Positions 1,673 through 11,314 of a stretch of DNA of 64,000 nt are shown in pieces. The stretch lies in the NCBI GenBank assembly GCA_015075445.1, contig JABTUJ010000018.1:1-64000 (forward strand), read 5' to 3'. Under the pieces are notes generated by a model. It saw only the letters and a list, made by a program, of their open reading frames with translations, did not search any database and was not told where the DNA came from. The stretch comes from Verrucomicrobiales bacterium (lineage in GTDB: Bacteria; Verrucomicrobiota; Verrucomicrobiia; Limisphaerales; J093). Both the position numbers and the translations under genes were made by a program. Numbering within the stretch: the stretch's first letter is position 1; each line of letters starts with the position of its first letter.

Positions 1673-3553
1673 TCAGTTCACCAGGGTCGCCGGCTCGGCC
1701 GCCGCGTCGGGCGACAGCTCGCGCGTCGCCAAGGCCAAGGCCGCCTGCCGCAGCTTCCACGCCTCCCGCCGAATCCACCGCTTCACGTTGCAGGCCGCGC
1801 CAATGAAATAGTTCTGCAGGCGCGCTTTGGCCAAGCCCCGCGAGCGGGCCCGCCGCAGCCCGTGCCCCCGCACCAATTCGCTCTGCGTGCCTTCGATGGC
1901 GTTGCGCTGTTTCATCCGGGTCTTGAACGCCTCCGTCTGCTGCTCTTGCCGCCGGGCCTGGAGCACGGTGTGATGTTCCCCCACCACCACCGTGCGGTGG
2001 CGCTGTCCCTCGCCCAGACATTGATCGCGCCGTGGGCACTCATGACAGTGCGTGCTGAACTCGAACCGATAGCTCACTTTGCCCGTCGCCTCCTCCTCCA
2101 ACCGGCTGCACTGCAGGCTGGACTTGCCGGCCGGACAAACGGCCTCTCGGCGCTCCACCTGAACCTGAAAATCCTCCACGCTGAACCGTCCCTCTTTGCG
2201 CGGCGCCGGCTGCGCCGGTCCCAGGATCTCCCGCCCCTCGGCGTGGGCTTGCGCCAACTTCTGCGCCGACACGTACGCCCCATCCACATACTGCACCGGC
2301 GGCTTGGCCAGCCCCATCGCCGCCTGCTCCTGTTCCATCTTCGCCGCCCCCACTTCGTCACTCTCGTGGGCCCGATGCGTCACGATCCCCGTGAGGAAAT
2401 TGCGCGTCGGTTCCCCCGGCGCCAGCACGCCTTCACTCACCGTCTCGGCCACTTGCACCTTGAAGCCGACGTGCTCCTTCTTGTGTGCCCCTTGCCCCTT
2501 GACCGCGTAGGTCGCCTCCGCATCGTGCGGATTCTGCACCCGGTCCGAATCCAGTTGCCCCTTGCCCTTGGGCACCACGGCCACGGCCACCTGGGCCGGC
2601 ACCGGCAGACCCAACTCGGGTTGGTCGCCCGCCCCCGCCGCGCTCCCCGGACACTCCTCCGAGGCCGCCGCCGACTCCCTGACCGCCCCGGCTGCCCCCG
2701 CGGCCGCCGTCCCGGGCGGTGCCGGGGAGCCTTCGATCTCGACCCCTTCTTTCTCCTGGGCCAGGGGAGCCGGCTGCCCCCCCACCATGTCAAACTGCTC
2801 GCCAAACACCCGCGCCAGCAACTGCACTTGCGCTCCCTGCGCCCACGCCCCACGCTCCGGCCCACGGACCCAGGCCAGCAACTCCCACGCGTCCGCCCCC
2901 GCTTCCCCCAGCTTGCGGCCCAACGCCTCCGCACCGGCCCGGTAGTCGGCCTGGCTTTCCACGTACCGTTCCCAGAGCCGGACCCAAAACGGCGGCCGCG
3001 CCCCCCCCTCCACCACCGCGGCCAGTTCTTGGAGCGCCAAGCGCAGGCTCTCCCGCACACAGTCCAGCCGGTTCATCCGCGCCACCCGCGCGAACATCTG
3101 CGTCGCGTCCAACCGTTGCCGGCTCTGCCGCGACACCAACCCCGCCTCCACCAGCGCGTCCAGGATCGTCGCAAAGCCCAGGGCACCCTGCTCGTGCTGG
3201 AGCAGCCGCCGACGAAAGTTCACCAGACTGGTCGGATGAAACACCGCGTCCCCCAACTGCCGGTTCAAGGCAAAGTTCCAACCCGCATGGTAACGCAGCA
3301 TCTCCACCGCCTGGCGATCCGGCATGCCGTCCAAGTCCTGCAGGATGTTCACCCCGAGCAGCAGCACCGGTTCCAAGGCGACGCGGCCGTTGTCGGCGCA
3401 GTAGCACTTCTCCAACTTGGCCCGGGCGCGCACCAGATGGGGGTAAACCAGCTTCGCGAAAAGCCGGTAGCGATCCGTTGCGGCAAACAGGCTGGCCGAG
3501 AGCCCCGCCGTCGAGAAGAGTTCTCCCTGGGTCGAGAAGTCGGGCAAACTCAT
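1673..3553 (-). CDS. IS1182-like transposase (DDE)
   Basis: A 626-residue transposase of the IS1182 type. The N-terminal DUF772-like part contains the typical ILQDLDGMPDRQAVEMLRYH region (about 70-90). Candidate catalytic residues are D149 (RLDATQMFA), D424 (QYVDGAYVS) and E554 (NAIEGTQSEL followed by a basic stretch RRARSRGLAK). A Cys/His patch (THCHECPRRDQC, about 501-512) lies between the second D and the E, as in other members. An Ala/Gly/Pro-rich linker sits at about 270-320. The gene fills most of its insertion sequence and is intact, so the element may still be able to move. Confidence 0.92.
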   Translation of the reverse strand: MSLPDFSTQGELFSTAGLSASLFAATDRYRLFAKLVYPHLVRARAKLEKCYCADNGRVALEPVLLLGVNILQDLDGMPDRQAVEMLRYHAGWNFALNRQLGDAVFHPTSLVNFRRRLLQHEQGALGFATILDALVEAGLVSRQSRQRLDATQMFARVARMNRLDCVRESLRLALQELAAVVEGGARPPFWVRLWERYVESQADYRAGAEALGRKLGEAGADAWELLAWVRGPERGAWAQGAQVQLLARVFGEQFDMVGGQPAPLAQEKEGVEIEGSPAPPGTAAAGAAGAVRESAAASEECPGSAAGAGDQPELGLPVPAQVAVAVVPKGKGQLDSDRVQNPHDAEATYAVKGQGAHKKEHVGFKVQVAETVSEGVLAPGEPTRNFLTGIVTHRAHESDEVGAAKMEQEQAAMGLAKPPVQYVDGAYVSAQKLAQAHAEGREILGPAQPAPRKEGRFSVEDFQVQVERREAVCPAGKSSLQCSRLEEEATGKVSYRFEFSTHCHECPRRDQCLGEGQRHRTVVVGEHHTVLQARRQEQQTEAFKTRMKQRNAIEGTQSELVRGHGLRRARSRGLAKARLQNYFIGAACNVKRWIRREAWKLRQAALALATRELSPDAAAEPATLVN

Positions 3554-3851: not shown

Positions 3852-3871
3852 GGGGTTTTTCAGCGGAATCA

Positions 3872-4010
3872 ACACTTGACACTTCATCTCACGAAAGTCC
3901 TTGCAGCGAAGCGGGATTGCTGAGTGCAAGACGGATACTGCGGACCGATGTGCCAAACCTGCGCCTCTCGTCGTCGGCACGCTGCTGGGGTCAGTCCCTG
4001 AAACCTGGCC
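3872..4010. repeat. Composite REP-like repeat copy 2, right part
   Basis: Continues the unit split by the IS1182-like element: ACACTTGACACTTCATCTCA, the CCTTGCAGCGAAGC segment, and the closing GGGGTCAGTCCCTGAAACCT module. Confidence 0.78.
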
Positions 4011-4012
4011 TG

Positions 4013-4148
4013 AAATAGGGGTCAAACCATAGTCTTGGCATGCCCGCCGCCTCATTCCTACGTTCCTGAGGTCCACCCGACTGCAAACACAATGGGTCAG
4101 ACCGCAACACTTGACACTTGATTTCACGAAAGTCCTTGCAGCGAAGCT
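4013..4148. repeat. Composite REP-like repeat copy 3, left part (split by IS21-type transposon)
   Basis: Begins AAATAGGGGTCAAACCATAG and matches copy 1 as far as CCTTGCAGCGAAGCT. The 4.8 kb transposon then begins. The unit resumes at 8980 with GCGAAGCTGGATCGCTGAG. Confidence 0.78.
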
Positions 4149-4154
4149 CGTCGC

Positions 4155-4212
4155 CGCTCACGAGAACTGACCCGGGTGTGCTCATGAGAAGTGAGCCACC
4201 TGGGTGAAGGGC
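4155..4212 (+). repeat. Left terminal inverted repeat of the IS21-type transposon
   Basis: 58 bp starting CGCTCACGAGAACTGACCCG and ending GGTGAAGGGC. It is the exact reverse complement of the sequence at 8915-8972. A weaker match (GGATTCCCTTTCCAGGG) continues inward. Confidence 0.92.
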
Positions 4213-4298
4213 AGAGGGATTCCCTTTCCAGGGAGAGATCGGATTCCGAGTAGGGAATGGACAAGCGCGGAGCGCGGAAGAGGACGGGAACAACGGGT

Positions 4299-5141
4299 TC
4301 AGCGCGGATGGAGACGAAGGGCGTCGTTCCAGTCTTTGGCCGGTGGGCGGAGTCGGCGGACCGCAGGATGAAGCAGGATCAGGCGTTGGGCCAGGGCGTC
4401 GCCGGTGGGATCCGCGTCGAAGCCGCAGAAGATGGGCAGGCCCAAACGGAGCAAGACGGTGAGCCAGGCAGGGTCGGGTCTGGCGCCGGAGGTGGAGAGG
4501 CAGCGAAAGGCCGGATGAAGGGCGTGGCAACTGAGGGCGTCGATGGCCGATTCGCAGAGGACGAGGGCGTCCACGGAGGCGGTGGACACCGAGAAGCAGC
4601 CGTGATCTTTGCGGGAGCCTGGAGCCATGCCGCGCCAGGACCCAGAGGTGGTGCCGCGCAGTTCGGCGCCGACCGCGGTGGCGGGGGTCTCACCCAACAG
4701 GAAGACGGCATTGGCCCTTGCGTCCGCGTAAAGGATCCCCGCGTGAACGAGCGGCGTGAGCAACGGGCGCGGCAGTCGCCGTTGTTCGATGAGGTAACGT
4801 TCAACGCGGGGCCAGTGGTGGACGCACGGAGGCGGGAGCGTCAGCGCCCGGGGTGCCGGACGGAAGCCGGGTTCGACCGGCGACCCGGGGTCAAAGCGCT
4901 CCTCCAACCATTGCAGGGCCTGGCCAAAGCCGAACTCTTGCACGTGCATGACCAAGTCGATGGCGCCGCCGCCCCCGACGCCTTGGTTCCAGTTGATGAA
5001 CTTGGCGCCGGTGACGGAGAGAACGCCGCGGGCGGTGCGCCACTTGGCCCGGTCGCCGGGATCGGGGGTGGCCTCCAACGCCGCCAGGACGACCGGCAGC
5101 GGCAGGGCGCGCAGGCGCTCGGCTCGGGCACGCCAGTTCAC
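4299..5141 (-). CDS. Toprim / DUF3991-like primase-related protein of the transposon
   Basis: A 280-residue protein. The N-terminal half has the GGGGAIDLVMHVQEFGFGQA pattern (57-76) of CHC2/DUF3991 regions in plasmid and phage primase-like proteins, but without zinc-binding cysteines. The C-terminal half is a Toprim fold: E197 in LVLCESAIDAL and the D242-x-D244 pair in FCGFDADPTGDAL, the usual metal-binding acidic residues of primases and topoisomerases. The GTG start at 5141 overlaps the istB stop (GTGA), so the two are translationally coupled. This is the last gene of the transposon operon; 157 bp remain to the left end. A role in replicating or repairing the element during transposition is plausible but inferred. 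The exact start is chosen by the overlap. Confidence 0.75.
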   Translation of the reverse strand: MNWRARAERLRALPLPVVLAALEATPDPGDRAKWRTARGVLSVTGAKFINWNQGVGGGGAIDLVMHVQEFGFGQALQWLEERFDPGSPVEPGFRPAPRALTLPPPCVHHWPRVERYLIEQRRLPRPLLTPLVHAGILYADARANAVFLLGETPATAVGAELRGTTSGSWRGMAPGSRKDHGCFSVSTASVDALVLCESAIDALSCHALHPAFRCLSTSGARPDPAWLTVLLRLGLPIFCGFDADPTGDALAQRLILLHPAVRRLRPPAKDWNDALRLHPR

Positions 5142-5878
5142 GGCTCGGTCATTCGGGGGCGCAGGCTGACGCAGTCTTTCATGTTGAAGACGTGGCTGGA
5201 TTCGGTCAGCCGGTCGATCAAGGCGGCGGTCAGATGGGGGTTCTTCAGGAAGGAGGCCCACTCGCTAAACCCCAGGTTGGAGGTGATGAGGGTCGAGCGC
5301 TGTCGGTGGCGTTTGTGCAGGAGGGTGAAGAAGAGCCCGACCTGCGCGGGCTCGGCTTCGACGTACCCAATTTCGTCGACCAAAAGGATATCGTATTGGA
5401 GATAGCGACGAAGGACACGAGCCTGAGAACGGTCGGCCTGGGAGCGGTGCAGTTCGTGCAGAAGATCGGCGAAGAGCACGTAACGACCGCGCGCTCCCTG
5501 GTGGATGGCCTGGATGAGGAAGCCCGTCGCCAATCCCGTCTTACCGACCCCGGTGCCGCCCAGCCAAAGGATGTTTTGTTTGTCCTTGAGGAAGGCCATC
5601 GAGTCGTAGAGGGCCAGGATCTTCTTCTGGTTGAGCTTGGGCTGGCGATCGAAGGGAAAGGTATCCAGAAGGAGCTTCTCCGGGATTTGGGCCAGCTTGA
5701 GGCGCTGCTCACGGGCCTGGTCACACTTGAGCCGGTATTCCTCCTCGATCACGCGGGTCAGGAGGCGGGCATGCGAGAGATTGGATTGGGCGGCGGCTTT
5801 CAAGTGGTCGTCCCAGCGGGCCAAGAGGCCCGTGAGGCGGAGGTATTTCAGCTGCGCCGCCAGGGGGTCAGTCATCAT
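5138..5878 (-). CDS. istB: IstB-like ATPase, transposition helper
   Basis: 246 residues, the usual length for IS21-family IstB, an AAA+ ATPase related to DnaC that loads on target DNA and activates the IstA transposase. Walker A is GGTGVGKT (107-114) and Walker B is LLVDEIGY (165-172); the sensor region STLITSNLGFSEW follows. Two ATG codons in tandem (5878, 5875) both overlap the end of istA, and the 3' end overlaps the Toprim gene by the GTGA junction. Intact. Confidence 0.95.
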   Translation of the reverse strand: MMTDPLAAQLKYLRLTGLLARWDDHLKAAAQSNLSHARLLTRVIEEEYRLKCDQAREQRLKLAQIPEKLLLDTFPFDRQPKLNQKKILALYDSMAFLKDKQNILWLGGTGVGKTGLATGFLIQAIHQGARGRYVLFADLLHELHRSQADRSQARVLRRYLQYDILLVDEIGYVEAEPAQVGLFFTLLHKRHRQRSTLITSNLGFSEWASFLKNPHLTAALIDRLTESSHVFNMKDCVSLRPRMTEP

Positions 5879-7337
5879 AGCGCGAGAGGTCCGGGGTGTC
5901 GGTGAGGGAGCCCTCCTGATAGGCGGGGCGTTTTTCCAGCTCGGGATCGACCAGGGGCTCCGGCAGCGCGGGGTCGTCCAGGAGCAACCGGGCGATCCGT
6001 TCCAGAGTCTCCAGGCTGGTGATGTGATAGCGGTGGGCCCGCTCCACGGTGCGCCCGAAGAGCGCACTGCCCCAGCGTTGGTGGCACGCCCAGAGCCGGC
6101 GCAGGAACTGGTGACGCAACAGACCCGGGGCGCCGAGAATGAAGTCGACGTAGGCGGCCACTTCCGGCGCCAGGGCGCGCAAACGCTTTGCCTCTTCGTG
6201 ACTGGAAAGTTGGAGATGGCGGGGGCGATAGCGCGCCGGCTGGCCGGGCGCGCGCACGATCTGGTTCTTCACGCCCCAGGGCGGCAGGGCGTATTGGATC
6301 ACCGAGCGACGATCCTGGCAAAGGACCACGTGATGGAGGTAGCGCAACACCTGGACCTGTCCCCGGCCGGTGCCGGACATTTCGTAGTAATTGCCGTCGA
6401 TGGCGACGAAGCCGTATTCGTCGATGGAACGGTCCAAGAGTTGGTAAGGCGCGGGGAGGTGCCGGGGCAGGGGCGTCAGGAACGGGCGTTCGTATTCGAA
6501 GGCCACAGCGGGAATGAGGCCAGCCTTGCCTTGGGGCCGCTGTTCCATCCGCACGGTCGACCACGCCAGGGCTTGGTGGTTGAGATCCTCCAGACTGGTA
6601 AAGGTGCGGCCCGGGATGAAGTTGGTTTCGACGGTCAGGAAGCTGCGTTCCTCGCCCGCTTTCCGATCCGAATGCTTGGGCGCATGGCACAGGAACTTGA
6701 AGCCGTAGCCCCGAGCGAAGACTTCCATCTCCGGGACCATCACCGCGTCGGCGCCCAGCCCGCGCCAGCGGGCCAGATTGGTGTTGTCGATGACACAGAG
6801 CGGCGGCGCATAGCCCCAATGCATCAAGGCCAGATGCAGGAAGCACTTGAGGTGAAAGCGATCGAAGAGGGGGTAGAACTGCAGATACCGCCGCTTGGAA
6901 TACCGCAGATAAAGCAGGCTGGCTTGGAGCCGGAGCCGCTGCGTACCCACCAGCACCGTGAACGGGCTGGTGTCGTGCTGCATCTCGGCTCCGGGCTCGT
7001 CGGGGACCTTTTGACAGCGCGCCGGACTCGGGCCGGTGATGCCCAGGTCCCGCAGATGCCGCGTCAGGGTCGAGTATTTGACGCTCAGGCCGTGTTCTTC
7101 CCGCAGCTTTTCGGTCATGCGCTGGGCGTAGCCCTCACACTCCCGGTGCAGCTGGCGCAACAGGTCCGCATCCAGCACGACCCGCGGGGGGCGAATGGGC
7201 GGGGGCATCTGCCCGGACTGAGCGATGATGTGTCGCACGGCGTTGCGGCTGAGTCGGAGTTGCCGGGCGATGGCCCGCTTGGAGACCCCTTCCTGATGCA
7301 TGAGGAAGACCGCTTGACGTTTATCCGCAGTGATCAT
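5868..7337 (-). CDS. istA: IstA-like transposase (IS21 family)
   Basis: 489 residues. An N-terminal helix-turn-helix (about 16-40, GVSKRAIARQLRLSRNAVRH) is followed by an rve/RNase H-like catalytic domain with D122 (EMQHDTSP), D184 (CVIDNTNLA) and a glutamate at 229-230 (DRKAGEERS), the DDE triad of retroviral-type integrases. A Mu-type C-terminal beta-barrel region follows (DEYGFVAIDGNYYEMSGTGR). The start overlaps the 3' end of the ParB-like gene by 17 bases and the stop overlaps istB. With istB it forms the core transposition machinery of this element. Confidence 0.95.
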   Translation of the reverse strand: MITADKRQAVFLMHQEGVSKRAIARQLRLSRNAVRHIIAQSGQMPPPIRPPRVVLDADLLRQLHRECEGYAQRMTEKLREEHGLSVKYSTLTRHLRDLGITGPSPARCQKVPDEPGAEMQHDTSPFTVLVGTQRLRLQASLLYLRYSKRRYLQFYPLFDRFHLKCFLHLALMHWGYAPPLCVIDNTNLARWRGLGADAVMVPEMEVFARGYGFKFLCHAPKHSDRKAGEERSFLTVETNFIPGRTFTSLEDLNHQALAWSTVRMEQRPQGKAGLIPAVAFEYERPFLTPLPRHLPAPYQLLDRSIDEYGFVAIDGNYYEMSGTGRGQVQVLRYLHHVVLCQDRRSVIQYALPPWGVKNQIVRAPGQPARYRPRHLQLSSHEEAKRLRALAPEVAAYVDFILGAPGLLRHQFLRRLWACHQRWGSALFGRTVERAHRYHITSLETLERIARLLLDDPALPEPLVDPELEKRPAYQEGSLTDTPDLSRYDD

Positions 7338-8250
7338 GGAGTTTTTGGATGGTTTGGGTGAAGGCGGGCAACCGGGAGAGCAACCCGGCGCACAGCAAAT
7401 GGGCTTGGGCGCGAAACGGACGGCTGGAGAGCCGGCTCGGATCGGCGCTCTTGGTCATGAGTCGGACCAGGAGCTTCTGGGCCTGCTCCAGATCCGCGAC
7501 CACCACGCGTTCAAACTCGCTGCCTCCGTCCGGATCCTCGGGCAACTCCTTGAGTTGTTGCAGCGGCAGGGCCAGATGCCCTCGGCGGATCTGCTCCCGC
7601 AACGACTCCGGCCCGCGGAAAAACCCGTGCGCCAACTGTTCGATCTGCCGGGCGCTGAGCTTTTTGCCGCGCAACGCCGCCACGAACTCGTCGATGGCCG
7701 CCGCGCCCTTTAGACGCCTAAACGGGCGCAGGGTGTAGAGGTAGGAGTAAACCGGGAAGCTCCCGTCGAAGAGCGCACCGCGTACCAGCGGACTCAACGC
7801 CGCCAGCACGCCCAAACGCAAACTCACCCAGGCCGGGCTGCGCCCGACTTGCGGGGCGATCTCGGCCACGCTCAGGCCGCCCGTGCCCTTGAGCTCATCG
7901 AGGAACCGGGCCTGTTCGAGCAACGACAACGCGTGATCGTTGGACGCGCGCAACAACCACACGATGCCGGCGGTTTCGTCCGCGGCCAGCGCCACGAACG
8001 GCACCGTGGCCAGATGCAGCTTTTGCGCGCAGCGCAGGCGCTTGAAGCCGTTGAGCAGGATCCGCACGCCAGCGACCTCCACCCCCTGCAATGGCTCCTG
8101 GATGCCGCCGGCGGCGATCGCCGACAAAAGCCGGGCCTCCACGGCCGGCGCTCGGAGCCGGCAGCCCTCGTAACGAAGATCCAACTGGGCCACTTCCACC
8201 AGCGCGGTGGTGCTCGAACGGCGTTCGGGATGTTCAGGGCGGTCGTTCAT
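7321..8250 (-). CDS. ParB/RepB-like nuclease-domain protein of the transposon
   Basis: 309 residues. Residues about 20-90 look like a ParB N-terminal domain: a QLDLRYEGCRLR strand, GIQEPLQGVEVAGVRILLNG, and GFKRLRCAQKL in the position of the GERRxxA box that binds CTP in ParB. A KorB/ParB-type helix-turn-helix follows (about 125-149, GLSVAEIAPQVGRSPAWVSL). The C-terminal third contains LSARQIEQLAHGFFRGPESL and no recognised domain. The ATG at 8250 overlaps the upstream zinc-ribbon gene by 17 bases; the 3' end overlaps istA by 17. In plasmids ParB-like proteins bind partition sites or act in replication control. Here it may bind the long inverted repeats or the element's DNA (inference). Confidence 0.8.
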   Translation of the reverse strand: MNDRPEHPERRSSTTALVEVAQLDLRYEGCRLRAPAVEARLLSAIAAGGIQEPLQGVEVAGVRILLNGFKRLRCAQKLHLATVPFVALAADETAGIVWLLRASNDHALSLLEQARFLDELKGTGGLSVAEIAPQVGRSPAWVSLRLGVLAALSPLVRGALFDGSFPVYSYLYTLRPFRRLKGAAAIDEFVAALRGKKLSARQIEQLAHGFFRGPESLREQIRRGHLALPLQQLKELPEDPDGGSEFERVVVADLEQAQKLLVRLMTKSADPSRLSSRPFRAQAHLLCAGLLSRLPAFTQTIQKLHDHCG

Positions 8251-8719
8251 TGAACCAGGCCACACCCTGATCCAACCGACGCGTGCGCACCATGCGGTGT
8301 TGTCTCCGCGTCCGCTCCAGCATCCCGATGACCTCCCAGCGCTCGACCCGTCGCCCTTCGATGAGCCCCACCAGCACGCACAAATACGCCAGGATCCGCC
8401 GTAACGATGGCGAAGCCCGATCCCCCAAGCCAGGGGATGCTTTCCTCCCACGTGAGCGCCGTTGTCCGTTGAGGGCTTGCTTCTTCACCTTGCCCTCCGG
8501 CTCCCGGTAATACGCCACACTGCGCCGCGTCGACTCCCGCCGCCGATATTCCCGGCTACAGCCAAAGGGACAGCCCAAATCCTCCCGCCCGGCGTTGCGC
8601 CGGTCCGTCAGAAAAAGAATCCCGCAGTGCCAGCACCGCGCCTGGCACTTCCGCAGCCACGGCTTGTTCCGCAACACCGATCGCAGCTCGACGTAATACG
8701 CCAACACCACCGGCGCCAC
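8234..8719 (-). CDS. Zinc-ribbon protein, first gene of the transposon operon
   Basis: About 161 residues from the GTG at 8719. It contains CWHC (29-32) and CPFGC (50-54), the two knuckles of a zinc ribbon, followed by a strongly basic stretch (REYRRRESTRRSVAYYR). The C-terminal part ends HRMVRTRRLDQGVAWFNERP. The frame upstream of the GTG stays open for 26 codons with protein-like content (FRFDRRWYRNGA) but offers no ATG, GTG or TTG, so the true start may use a rare codon. The gene overlaps the ParB-like gene by 17 bases and lies about 260 bp inside the right end. Function unknown; DNA binding is likely from the ribbon and charge. Confidence 0.65.
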   Translation of the reverse strand: MAPVVLAYYVELRSVLRNKPWLRKCQARCWHCGILFLTDRRNAGREDLGCPFGCSREYRRRESTRRSVAYYREPEGKVKKQALNGQRRSRGRKASPGLGDRASPSLRRILAYLCVLVGLIEGRRVERWEVIGMLERTRRQHRMVRTRRLDQGVAWFNERPP

Positions 8720-8914
8720 CGCCCCATTCCGATACCACCTCCGGTCGAATCGAAATCCCGCCGCGATCTGGGTTGCAAAAAAGCTAGGCTCTCGCTATGA
8801 ACACTGAAGTCTGCTAAAGCGCCCTTGTCCTACCAAAAACGGCCCTCGGCCGTCGAGGTGGGGCAAGGGTTTTCTGCGTCCGCGACCTCCCTCCCTTGGA
8901 AAGGAAATCCTCCC

Positions 8915-8972
8915 GCCCTTCACCCAGGTGGCTCACTTCTCATGAGCACACCCGGGTCAGTTCTCGTGAGCG
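8915..8972 (-). repeat. Right terminal inverted repeat of the IS21-type transposon
   Basis: Exact inverted copy of the 58 bp at 4155-4212. The 190 bp between it and the zinc-ribbon gene hold no ORF of note and presumably the operon promoter. Confidence 0.92.
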
Positions 8973-8979
8973 CTAACGA

Positions 8980-9301
8980 GCGAAGCTGGATCGCTGAGTG
9001 CAAGACGGATACTGCGGACCGATCTAAATAGGGGTCAAACCATAGTTTTGGCATGTCCGCCGCCTCTTTCCAAATAGGGGTCAAACCATAGTTTTGGCAT
9101 GTCCGCCGCCTCTTTCCTACGTTCCTTTGGTCCGCCCGACTGCAAACACAATAGGGTCAGACAGCAGCACTTGACATTTGATTTCACGAAAGCCCTTGCA
9201 GCGAAGCTGGATCGCTGAGTGGAAGACGGATACTGCGGACCGATGTGCCAAACCTCCGCCTCTCGTCGGCACGCCGCTGGGGTCAGTCCCTGAAACCTGA
9301 A
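8980..9301. repeat. REP-like repeat cluster: end of copy 3, partial copy 4, full copy 5
   Basis: The first 46 bp finish the unit split by the transposon. A 46-bp first module (AAATAGGGGTCAAACC...) follows, and then at 9072 a second first module opens a complete unit ending GGGGTCAGTCCCTGAAACCT. The tandem first modules show that the units recombine or stack. Confidence 0.78.
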
Positions 9302-10716: not shown

Positions 10717-11112
10717 TCACAGTTGTTCGACGACCAGTTTGTCGCCTGCGACGCCCTGGATGGCATCGAAGTGCGCGTCGCGACACGCGACTGGAATGCC
10801 CGTGCGGATGGCGATGGTGGCGACGAACAGATCGTTTCGCGGCACCGAGACTCCCTGATTGCGGATCTGACGCTCGAGTCTGGCGGCGGCGCACCAATCC
10901 TCCGGCTCGAATCGAAGGTGATGAATGAAGCCGAGAGCCTGCGCAAGGTCGGCTTCCTCCTCGGGACGCACGCCGGCGAGGAGTTCGAACCGGATAGGGC
11001 AGCTATAGGCGGCCTGGTCCGCTTCGAGAAGCCGCGCCACCGCGTGCTTCGCCTCCGGATCTCCGCGCCGGCGCAGGAACTCGATCCACAGCGACGTATC
11101 AACGATCTTCAT
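10717..11112 (-). CDS. vapC: VapC-like PIN-domain toxin
   Basis: 131 residues beginning MKIVDTSLWIEFLRRRGD, the canonical first strand and helix of VapC (D5). Further acidic positions lie in RFELLAGVRPEEEADLAQAL and NDLFVATIAIRTGIPVACRD, and AHFDAI closes the active site. VapC toxins cut tRNA or rRNA. The ATG at 11112 lies inside the vapB gene (14-base overlap), the usual coupling of this operon. Intact. Confidence 0.92.
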   Translation of the reverse strand: MKIVDTSLWIEFLRRRGDPEAKHAVARLLEADQAAYSCPIRFELLAGVRPEEEADLAQALGFIHHLRFEPEDWCAAARLERQIRNQGVSVPRNDLFVATIAIRTGIPVACRDAHFDAIQGVAGDKLVVEQL

Positions 11113-11314
11113 ACACGTCCGCGGCTTCGACTTCCTCGTTGGTGAGGGCAAAGTCGGTGCCGCCCTTCAAGGCGCGCTCGATGAACTGCCGCTTGTCGTG
11201 GAGCCGGATCAGCTCGGTAAGGGCGCGATGGATCGCGGGCGATTTCTTCTTTTCACGTGTGATTTCACGGATTCTCTCCAATTCATTCTCATCAATGTCT
11301 ATCGTGATTCGCAT
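11099..11314 (-). CDS. vapB: VapB-like ribbon-helix-helix antitoxin
   Basis: 71 residues. MRITIDIDENELERIREITR is the N-terminal strand and helix of a ribbon-helix-helix DNA-binding domain as in VapB/DUF2191 antitoxins. The C-terminal tail (FALTNEEVEAADVYEDR) is acidic, as expected for the part that wraps the toxin. It overlaps vapC. A TACTAG-like -10 lies about 10-15 bases before the ATG. Confidence 0.88.
   Translation of the reverse strand: MRITIDIDENELERIREITREKKKSPAIHRALTELIRLHDKRQFIERALKGGTDFALTNEEVEAADVYEDR

Follow-up and report, generated by a model that had tools for sequence, protein, structure and literature searches.

IS21 is regarded as a minimal, two-protein transposon and serves as a structural model for AAA+-controlled transposition. 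Why, then, should a transposon of this type carry a zinc-finger gene, a ParB-like gene and a primase-like gene between its ends? The question is raised by an element in the first 64,000 nucleotides of contig JABTUJ010000018.1 (forward strand) of a Verrucomicrobiales bacterium (GCA_015075445.1), a stretch that we call the window. The answer that we consider probable is that the element belongs to a deep IS21-group lineage in which a ParB/KorB-fold protein has been fixed in the module, and that the extra genes serve the element, the last of them (gene 5) perhaps aiding DNA synthesis. Its components are as follows:

4149..8978, minus strand: complete transposon, 4830 bp; left end CGTCGCCGCTC..., right end (reverse complement) CGTTAGCGCTC...
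4155..4212, plus strand: left arm of the exact 58-bp inverted repeat; two GCTCAyGAGAAsTGAsCC repeats start within it at 4156 and 4180, 24 bp apart
8915..8972, minus strand: right exact 58-bp inverted repeat, which holds the two GCTCAyGAGAAsTGAsCC-type repeats too
4140..4148, no strand: left target-site duplication AGCGAAGCT, 9 bases
8979..8987, no strand: right target-site duplication AGCGAAGCT, 9 bases
8234..8719, minus strand: gene 1, zinc-finger protein, 161 amino acids (C26, C29, C47, C51)
7321..8250, minus strand: gene 2, ParB/KorB-fold protein, 309 amino acids, with GFKR instead of GERR
5868..7337, minus strand: gene 3, istA transposase, 489 amino acids, with invariant D122, D184 and E230
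5138..5878, minus strand: gene 4, istB AAA+ ATPase, 246 amino acids
4299..5141, minus strand: gene 5, DUF3991-TOPRIM primase-like protein, 280 amino acids; starts with GTG, retains the catalytic E and DxD and has lost the zinc cysteines of the N-domain

All five frames are open. Read along the minus strand, zinc finger, ParB-like, istA, istB and TOPRIM protein follow in this order, each overlapping the next: by 17 bases between zinc finger and ParB (8250-8234), by 17 between ParB and IstA (7337-7321), by 11 or 8 between IstA and IstB according to the choice of start codon, and by 4 (GTGA, 5141-5138) between IstB and TOPRIM. An earlier, sequence-only reading of this DNA had described the same overlaps, with IstA and IstB intact, and four of the identities that it proposed (IstA, IstB, ParB-like and Toprim) are upheld by family-profile matches. 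Thus, IstB matches Pfam PF01695 (E 4e-55) and NF038214 (201.2 bits, cut-off 200); IstA matches the NCBIfam IS21 model (E 3.5e-37; 128.5 bits, under the cut-off of 160) as well as PDB 8q4d/8b4h (E 1e-10), and its D122, D184 and E230 are invariant across 26 relatives; the ParB-like protein matches TIGR00180 (E 6e-07, under that model's cut-off); and DUF3991 and Toprim_2 are both found in gene 5 above their gathering thresholds. The zinc-finger protein matched no Pfam family; its four cysteines are conserved. When the window element was compared with its two closest intact relatives (Nei-Gojobori), the ratio of nonsynonymous to synonymous substitution (dN/dS) was 0.09-0.31 across the five genes. 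Gene 5 is the least constrained (0.27-0.31), yet well under 1, and purifying selection acts on every one of the five.

The boundaries of the element are equally clear. The exact 58-bp inverted repeats reported from the sequence alone are confirmed, and their arms extend imperfectly to 4139-4233/8894-8988. The flanking duplication that it had noted is also real, with a length of 9 bases rather than 8. The sequences outside the element are the two halves of one local repeat (bases 2-46 and 38-82 of an 88-base copy, 9 of them common to both), so that the interrupted copy is 4104-4148 plus 8979-9023; unbroken copies lie nearby at 1000-1086, 3870-3955 and 9163-9250, and AGCGAAGCT is therefore a genuine target duplication. 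This target repeat belongs to an intergenic family which, within its own genome, is confined to this stretch; a second repeat, GGGGTCAAACCATAGT, accompanies the family five times in the window. The element is an intact, recently inserted, mobile transposon.

Are the extra genes a fixed part of it? Scanning 84,980 species genomes with IstA returned 44 relatives with about 46-95% identity. The names of their bins point to Verrucomicrobiota, Acidobacteriota, Planctomycetota, Pseudomonadota, Desulfobacteraceae and others, single names being unreliable. All five genes are recognisable and colinear in 27 of the 44, most of the remainder being cut by contig ends; the conserved five-gene order anticipated by the sequence-only reading is thus present. 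The ParB-like gene sits directly upstream of istA, usually overlapping it, and is absent from just two of the 41 relatives with room upstream of istA (one truncated, one degenerate). In 388 genomes of the phylum, a ParB profile hit five places with E values of about 1e-127 to 1e-141, all next to istA, and nothing else better than 1e-11, which leaves a large gap to the chromosomal ParBs. Proteins of intermediate score, found in the order around the genome of locus L052 and in the phylum of an Acidobacteriota genome, are again encoded directly upstream of istA-istB, and the sole ParB above the gap without a visible istA (L210) lies where a contig end cuts. Conversely, ordinary IS21 elements from related genomes and annotated plasmids (IstA up to about 31% identical) had no ParB. 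In a tree of 72 IstA proteins, 54 with and 18 without ParB, the ParB label changes once, at a branch with support of 91, with the istAB-only elements on the other side of the change; shuffled labels required a mean of 16 changes, and none of 500 shuffles came as low as one. The tree was built quickly and has no root, and some of its ParB-less rows sit on long branches, so that it does not tell gain of ParB from loss. ParB-istA-istB is the invariant core, with the ParB-like gene fixed in the module: as the sequence-only reading had it, the extra genes are locked into the istAB unit, by conserved order, by selection and by a ParB family that was not found away from istAB in the genomes searched.

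The lineage is mobile. Elsewhere in the same genome there is a second full copy (4958 bp, 66% IstA identity, duplication TGTTGGG), whose istA is split by a frame change, along with 631 bp left over from the gene-5 end of a closely related element (G000:C1:377469-377527; L233 2398-3028). A congener carries a full-length copy (L235), 95% identical over 4826 bases; divergent congeneric copies are flanked by the duplications TGCTGAG and ATGTTTG, and many of the frame breaks in that congener may be assembly errors. A search for window-like ends in four genomes of the genus, which found them in two, gave no pair enclosing istAB alone, the matches lying at or near such elements or their remnants. Further afield, plasmid pHRM2a of Desulforapulum autotrophicum has a copy of 4737 bp with the duplication GTGGAGGC, and is the only one among the plasmid records to carry a close relative; a plasmid collection searched with the proteins of L156 and L144 yielded many ordinary IS21 and no close new ParB-IS21. 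Two identical copies of a 3,894-bp element (zinc finger-ParB-istA-istB) occupy separate sites of one 4.52-Mb Acidobacteriota contig and so delimit a four-gene member exactly; at one of the sites it is flanked by a 7-bp duplication, TCGCGGC. Altogether, six copies have target duplications of 7-9 bp. An origin from phages was considered and rejected, as neither the ParB nor the IstA alignments found relatives on viral contigs and there was one weak phage match.

The genes on either side of the invariant core differ between branches. In one of these, to which D. autotrophicum belongs, gene 5 consists of a DnaG-type zinc finger and has no TOPRIM part (L056, L057, L063, L069, L077 and L191; the first three are among the 27 colinear relatives, their gene-5 match being confined to the zinc-finger part), and L181 and L189, from other branches, show a weaker match to this finger, below the Pfam cut-off. 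In an Acidobacteriota branch (L144, L145, L202, L203) its place is taken by an unrelated small protein of no matched family, and in L207 and L208 no gene 5 is recognisable. Gene 1 usually encodes a small cysteine-rich protein; it is replaced by a DUF6431-domain protein in L076 (1123-1671), and by a similar protein with no family match in L051 and L189. In two elements the gene 1 position, directly upstream of ParB-istA-istB, is held by a RepB-type primase. The variants located are:

L156 327-1106: RepB-type primase in the gene 1 position, above both Pfam cut-offs
L187 2765-3532, minus strand: RepB-type primase in the gene 1 position, above both Pfam cut-offs
L144 1404-1880, minus strand: small last-gene protein, Acidobacteriota-type element
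L145 3830-4300: small last-gene protein, Acidobacteriota-type element
L202 3747-4094: small last-gene protein, Acidobacteriota-type element

Primase-type proteins of two unrelated folds therefore recur at the edges of the core.

What might these genes do? The biochemical roles of genes 1, 2 and 5 are predictions from alignments and predicted folds. The model of the ParB-like protein (pLDDT 89.8) matches Noc, ParB and KorB in Foldseek and, less strongly, PadC. The family has lost the glutamate of GERR and the E/N of ENxxR: in clade A (30 relatives) GFKRxRCA stands for GERRxRA and RxSNxxxL for ENxxR, and in other branches the first motif reads G-[FYH]-[KQR]-R. PadC, a protein without CTP hydrolysis, likewise has Phe in place of the catalytic Glu (PMC8367383), and because of this same substitution no CTP hydrolysis is expected from the ParB-like protein. 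The sequence-only reading had suggested partition-like functions. These are not borne out: no ParA gene is found among the five genes of the element, which makes partition unlikely, and the loss of the CTPase motifs GERR and ENxxR rules against it as well. The protein more probably serves as a DNA-binding clamp, a bridge or a repressor; most likely, a dimer would bind the DNA of the element without CTP hydrolysis and either organise its ends or repress its promoter, and the zinc-finger protein is probably a further DNA-binding regulator.

A possible operator lies upstream of gene 1, in the form of a dyad:

8820..8834, no strand: first arm of the leader dyad, CGCCCTTGTCCTACC, upstream of gene 1, found in close clade-A members
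8857..8871, no strand: second arm, GGTGGGGCAAGGGTT, after a 22-bp spacer

Its arms measure 13-15 bp with the 22-bp spacer, some 125 bp separate it from gene 1 in close relatives, and it is conserved among close clade-A relatives with changes present on both arms. When the element was examined for a parS-like centromere, this single dyad was what was observed. The leader RNA shows no stability in excess (z about 0), and for this reason we treat the dyad as a possible DNA site.

The dyad leads to the main rival of our explanation, to which we grant a real if lesser chance: that the ParB-like protein and the zinc finger are simply KorB-like repressors acting at the dyad to hold transposase at a low level, that the TOPRIM protein is a minor accessory and that IstA and IstB suffice for transposition. 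Foldseek places gene 2 near KorB of RK2, genes 1 and 2 precede istA in a single overlapping unit, with the conserved dyad ahead of them, and the characterised IS21 has no proteins beyond IstA and IstB (PMC11208146). However, such repressors leave the recurrence of primase-type proteins in different branches unexplained, and the dyad is unrecognised in the deeper half of clade A.

It is gene 5 that bears on the recurrence of primases. Its model (pLDDT 90.2) matches the DnaG proteins of Aquifex and E. coli and the T7 gp4 primase, and the TOPRIM Glu and DxD (CESAID, GFDxD) are invariant across 20 relatives; gene 5 is thus predicted to fold like a primase and retains the catalytic residues of TOPRIM. 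Its nearest relatives outside the lineage, 31-37% identical, are DUF3991-TOPRIM proteins of mobilisable plasmids, several of them fused to MobV relaxases, and these plasmid proteins are linked to single-stranded DNA transfer. A replication-like role, as the sequence-only reading had suggested, appears plausible.

These parts can be assembled into a mechanism. By homology and anatomy, IstA, a DDE transposase, would act on the ends with their two repeats each, and IstB, an AAA+ protein, would select the target, giving rise to the 7-9 bp duplications; the ParB-like protein would bind the element as described above. Copy-out/paste-in transposition has been proposed for IS21 (PMC11208146). Such a pathway would need DNA synthesis to restore the donor and to complete the copied element, which is why a transposon-encoded primase would fit, and gene 5 might prime it. 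We propose tentatively, short of an even call, that gene 5 primes or assists synthesis of the element's DNA in the copy-out step or on a circular intermediate. The presence of an unrelated primase in another branch is expected if priming is the selected function.

Several points weigh against our explanation of a lineage whose extra genes serve the element. Ordinary IS21 moves with istAB alone. The cysteines of the N-terminal zinc-binding (CHC2) domain of DnaG are lost from gene 5 of the window, although other branches have a gene 5 with a CHC2 zinc finger. Gene 5 varies or is absent by branch, so that a primase is not required by every member. Finally, many relatives come from short metagenome contigs (many of 4-6 kb). 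A bolder version of the same explanation, rather unlikely in our judgement, would make the ParB-bearing IS21 elements a separate class, equipped with their own DNA-organising protein and primer-maker, whose copying is independent of the host primase and whose branches have recruited unrelated primases for the same job.

An improbable alternative is a chimera of transposon and plasmid, in which a ParB, zinc finger and primase derived from plasmids enable the excised circle to be replicated or maintained until it reinserts. The plasmid mobilisation proteins nearest to gene 5, the RepB primase, which serves plasmid replication and mobilisation, and the intact member on pHRM2a would all suit such an origin, but neither a ParA nor a replication initiator gene is found within the element, the ParB motifs for CTP hydrolysis are lost and the boundaries are exact at the inverted repeats. 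That the three extra genes are passengers of an ordinary IS21, for which the differences in genes 1 and 5 between branches might speak, we reject as very improbable in view of an IstA tree on which the presence of ParB changes once, an order kept down to about 46% IstA identity, the gene overlaps with purifying selection, and a ParB family seen only beside istAB.

The explanation that we prefer, a deep lineage with ParB built into its transposition module, has consequences beyond this locus. We found no description of IS21 elements with ParB, primase, passenger genes or DUF3991 in a text search of 5.39 million open papers, which took in neither ISfinder nor subscription papers; this is apparently a widespread bacterial transposon lineage not described before. 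A 2025 survey of the ParB fold makes no mention of IS21 or transposases (PMC12704722), and a ParB-like gene fixed in an IS21 lineage would add a new role for this fold. Recurring primase-type genes in a ParB-fixed lineage would also offer a direct way to test replication of the copy-out intermediate. Moreover, the genes of these elements are mislabelled by genome annotation, as in D. autotrophicum, where they appear as 'chromosome partitioning protein ParB' and 'CHC2 zinc finger domain-containing protein' and the element is not annotated as a transposon.

Other mobile or paired genes were seen along the way. In the window, an open reading frame of 626 amino acids (1673-3553), in the same repeat-rich stretch, resembles the transposase of another insertion sequence family, and an adjacent pair of small open reading frames (10717-11314) resembles a PIN-type toxin and its antitoxin. 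On the Caballeronia plasmid pSBC1_4 (L158 2985-6327), an IS21 without ParB has two small overlapping open reading frames before istA and one after istB; this element, near a TniQ-family gene, is possibly another multi-gene IS21 type.

The window element can finally be set against the systems that it resembles. (i) With ParB, Noc, KorB and PadC it shares the ParB N-domain and helix-turn-helix (HTH) fold, and with CTPase-dead PadC the Phe at the catalytic Glu; unlike them, its protein has no ParA partner, has lost GERR and ENxxR and is found only with istAB. (ii) The plasmid DUF3991-TOPRIM proteins, some of them fused to MobV, have the same domain pair as gene 5, with the TOPRIM E and DxD kept; gene 5, by contrast, is coupled to istAB and not to a relaxase. 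(iii) Gene 5 resembles the DnaG and T7 gp4 primases in the predicted fold of its zinc-domain-like and RNA-polymerase/TOPRIM parts, but lacks the zinc cysteines and a helicase-binding domain and is only 280 amino acids long. (iv) The RepB-type primase (PF16793) sits at the gene 1 position in the ParB-IS21 elements L156 and L187; it has an unrelated primase fold and is not present in the window element. (v) As in the IS21 family (IS21, IS5376, ISPepr5), istA precedes and overlaps istB, IstA is a DDE protein with an N-terminal HTH, IstB is an AAA+ protein, the target duplication is short and each long end holds two repeats, the ends of IS21 being described as multi-repeat (PMC11208146). The archetype, however, has istA and istB alone, IstA and IstB being the only proteins encoded by the characterised IS21 (PMC11208146), whereas the window element has three further genes. 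Its IstA falls under the NCBI cut-off and shares no more than about 31% identity with the IstA proteins of istAB-only elements, its lineage makes target duplications of 7-9 bp, and all copies with a duplication have ends of the form C...G (CGTCGCC, CGTTAGC, CTATGGC, CTTCGAC). Terminal TG...CA, seen in IS5376 with the CA dinucleotide at the transferred 3' end, is typical of IS21, not strictly defining. We therefore file the element not as a standard IS21 but as a member of a divergent IS21-group lineage whose ends are atypical and whose additional genes are integral to it.

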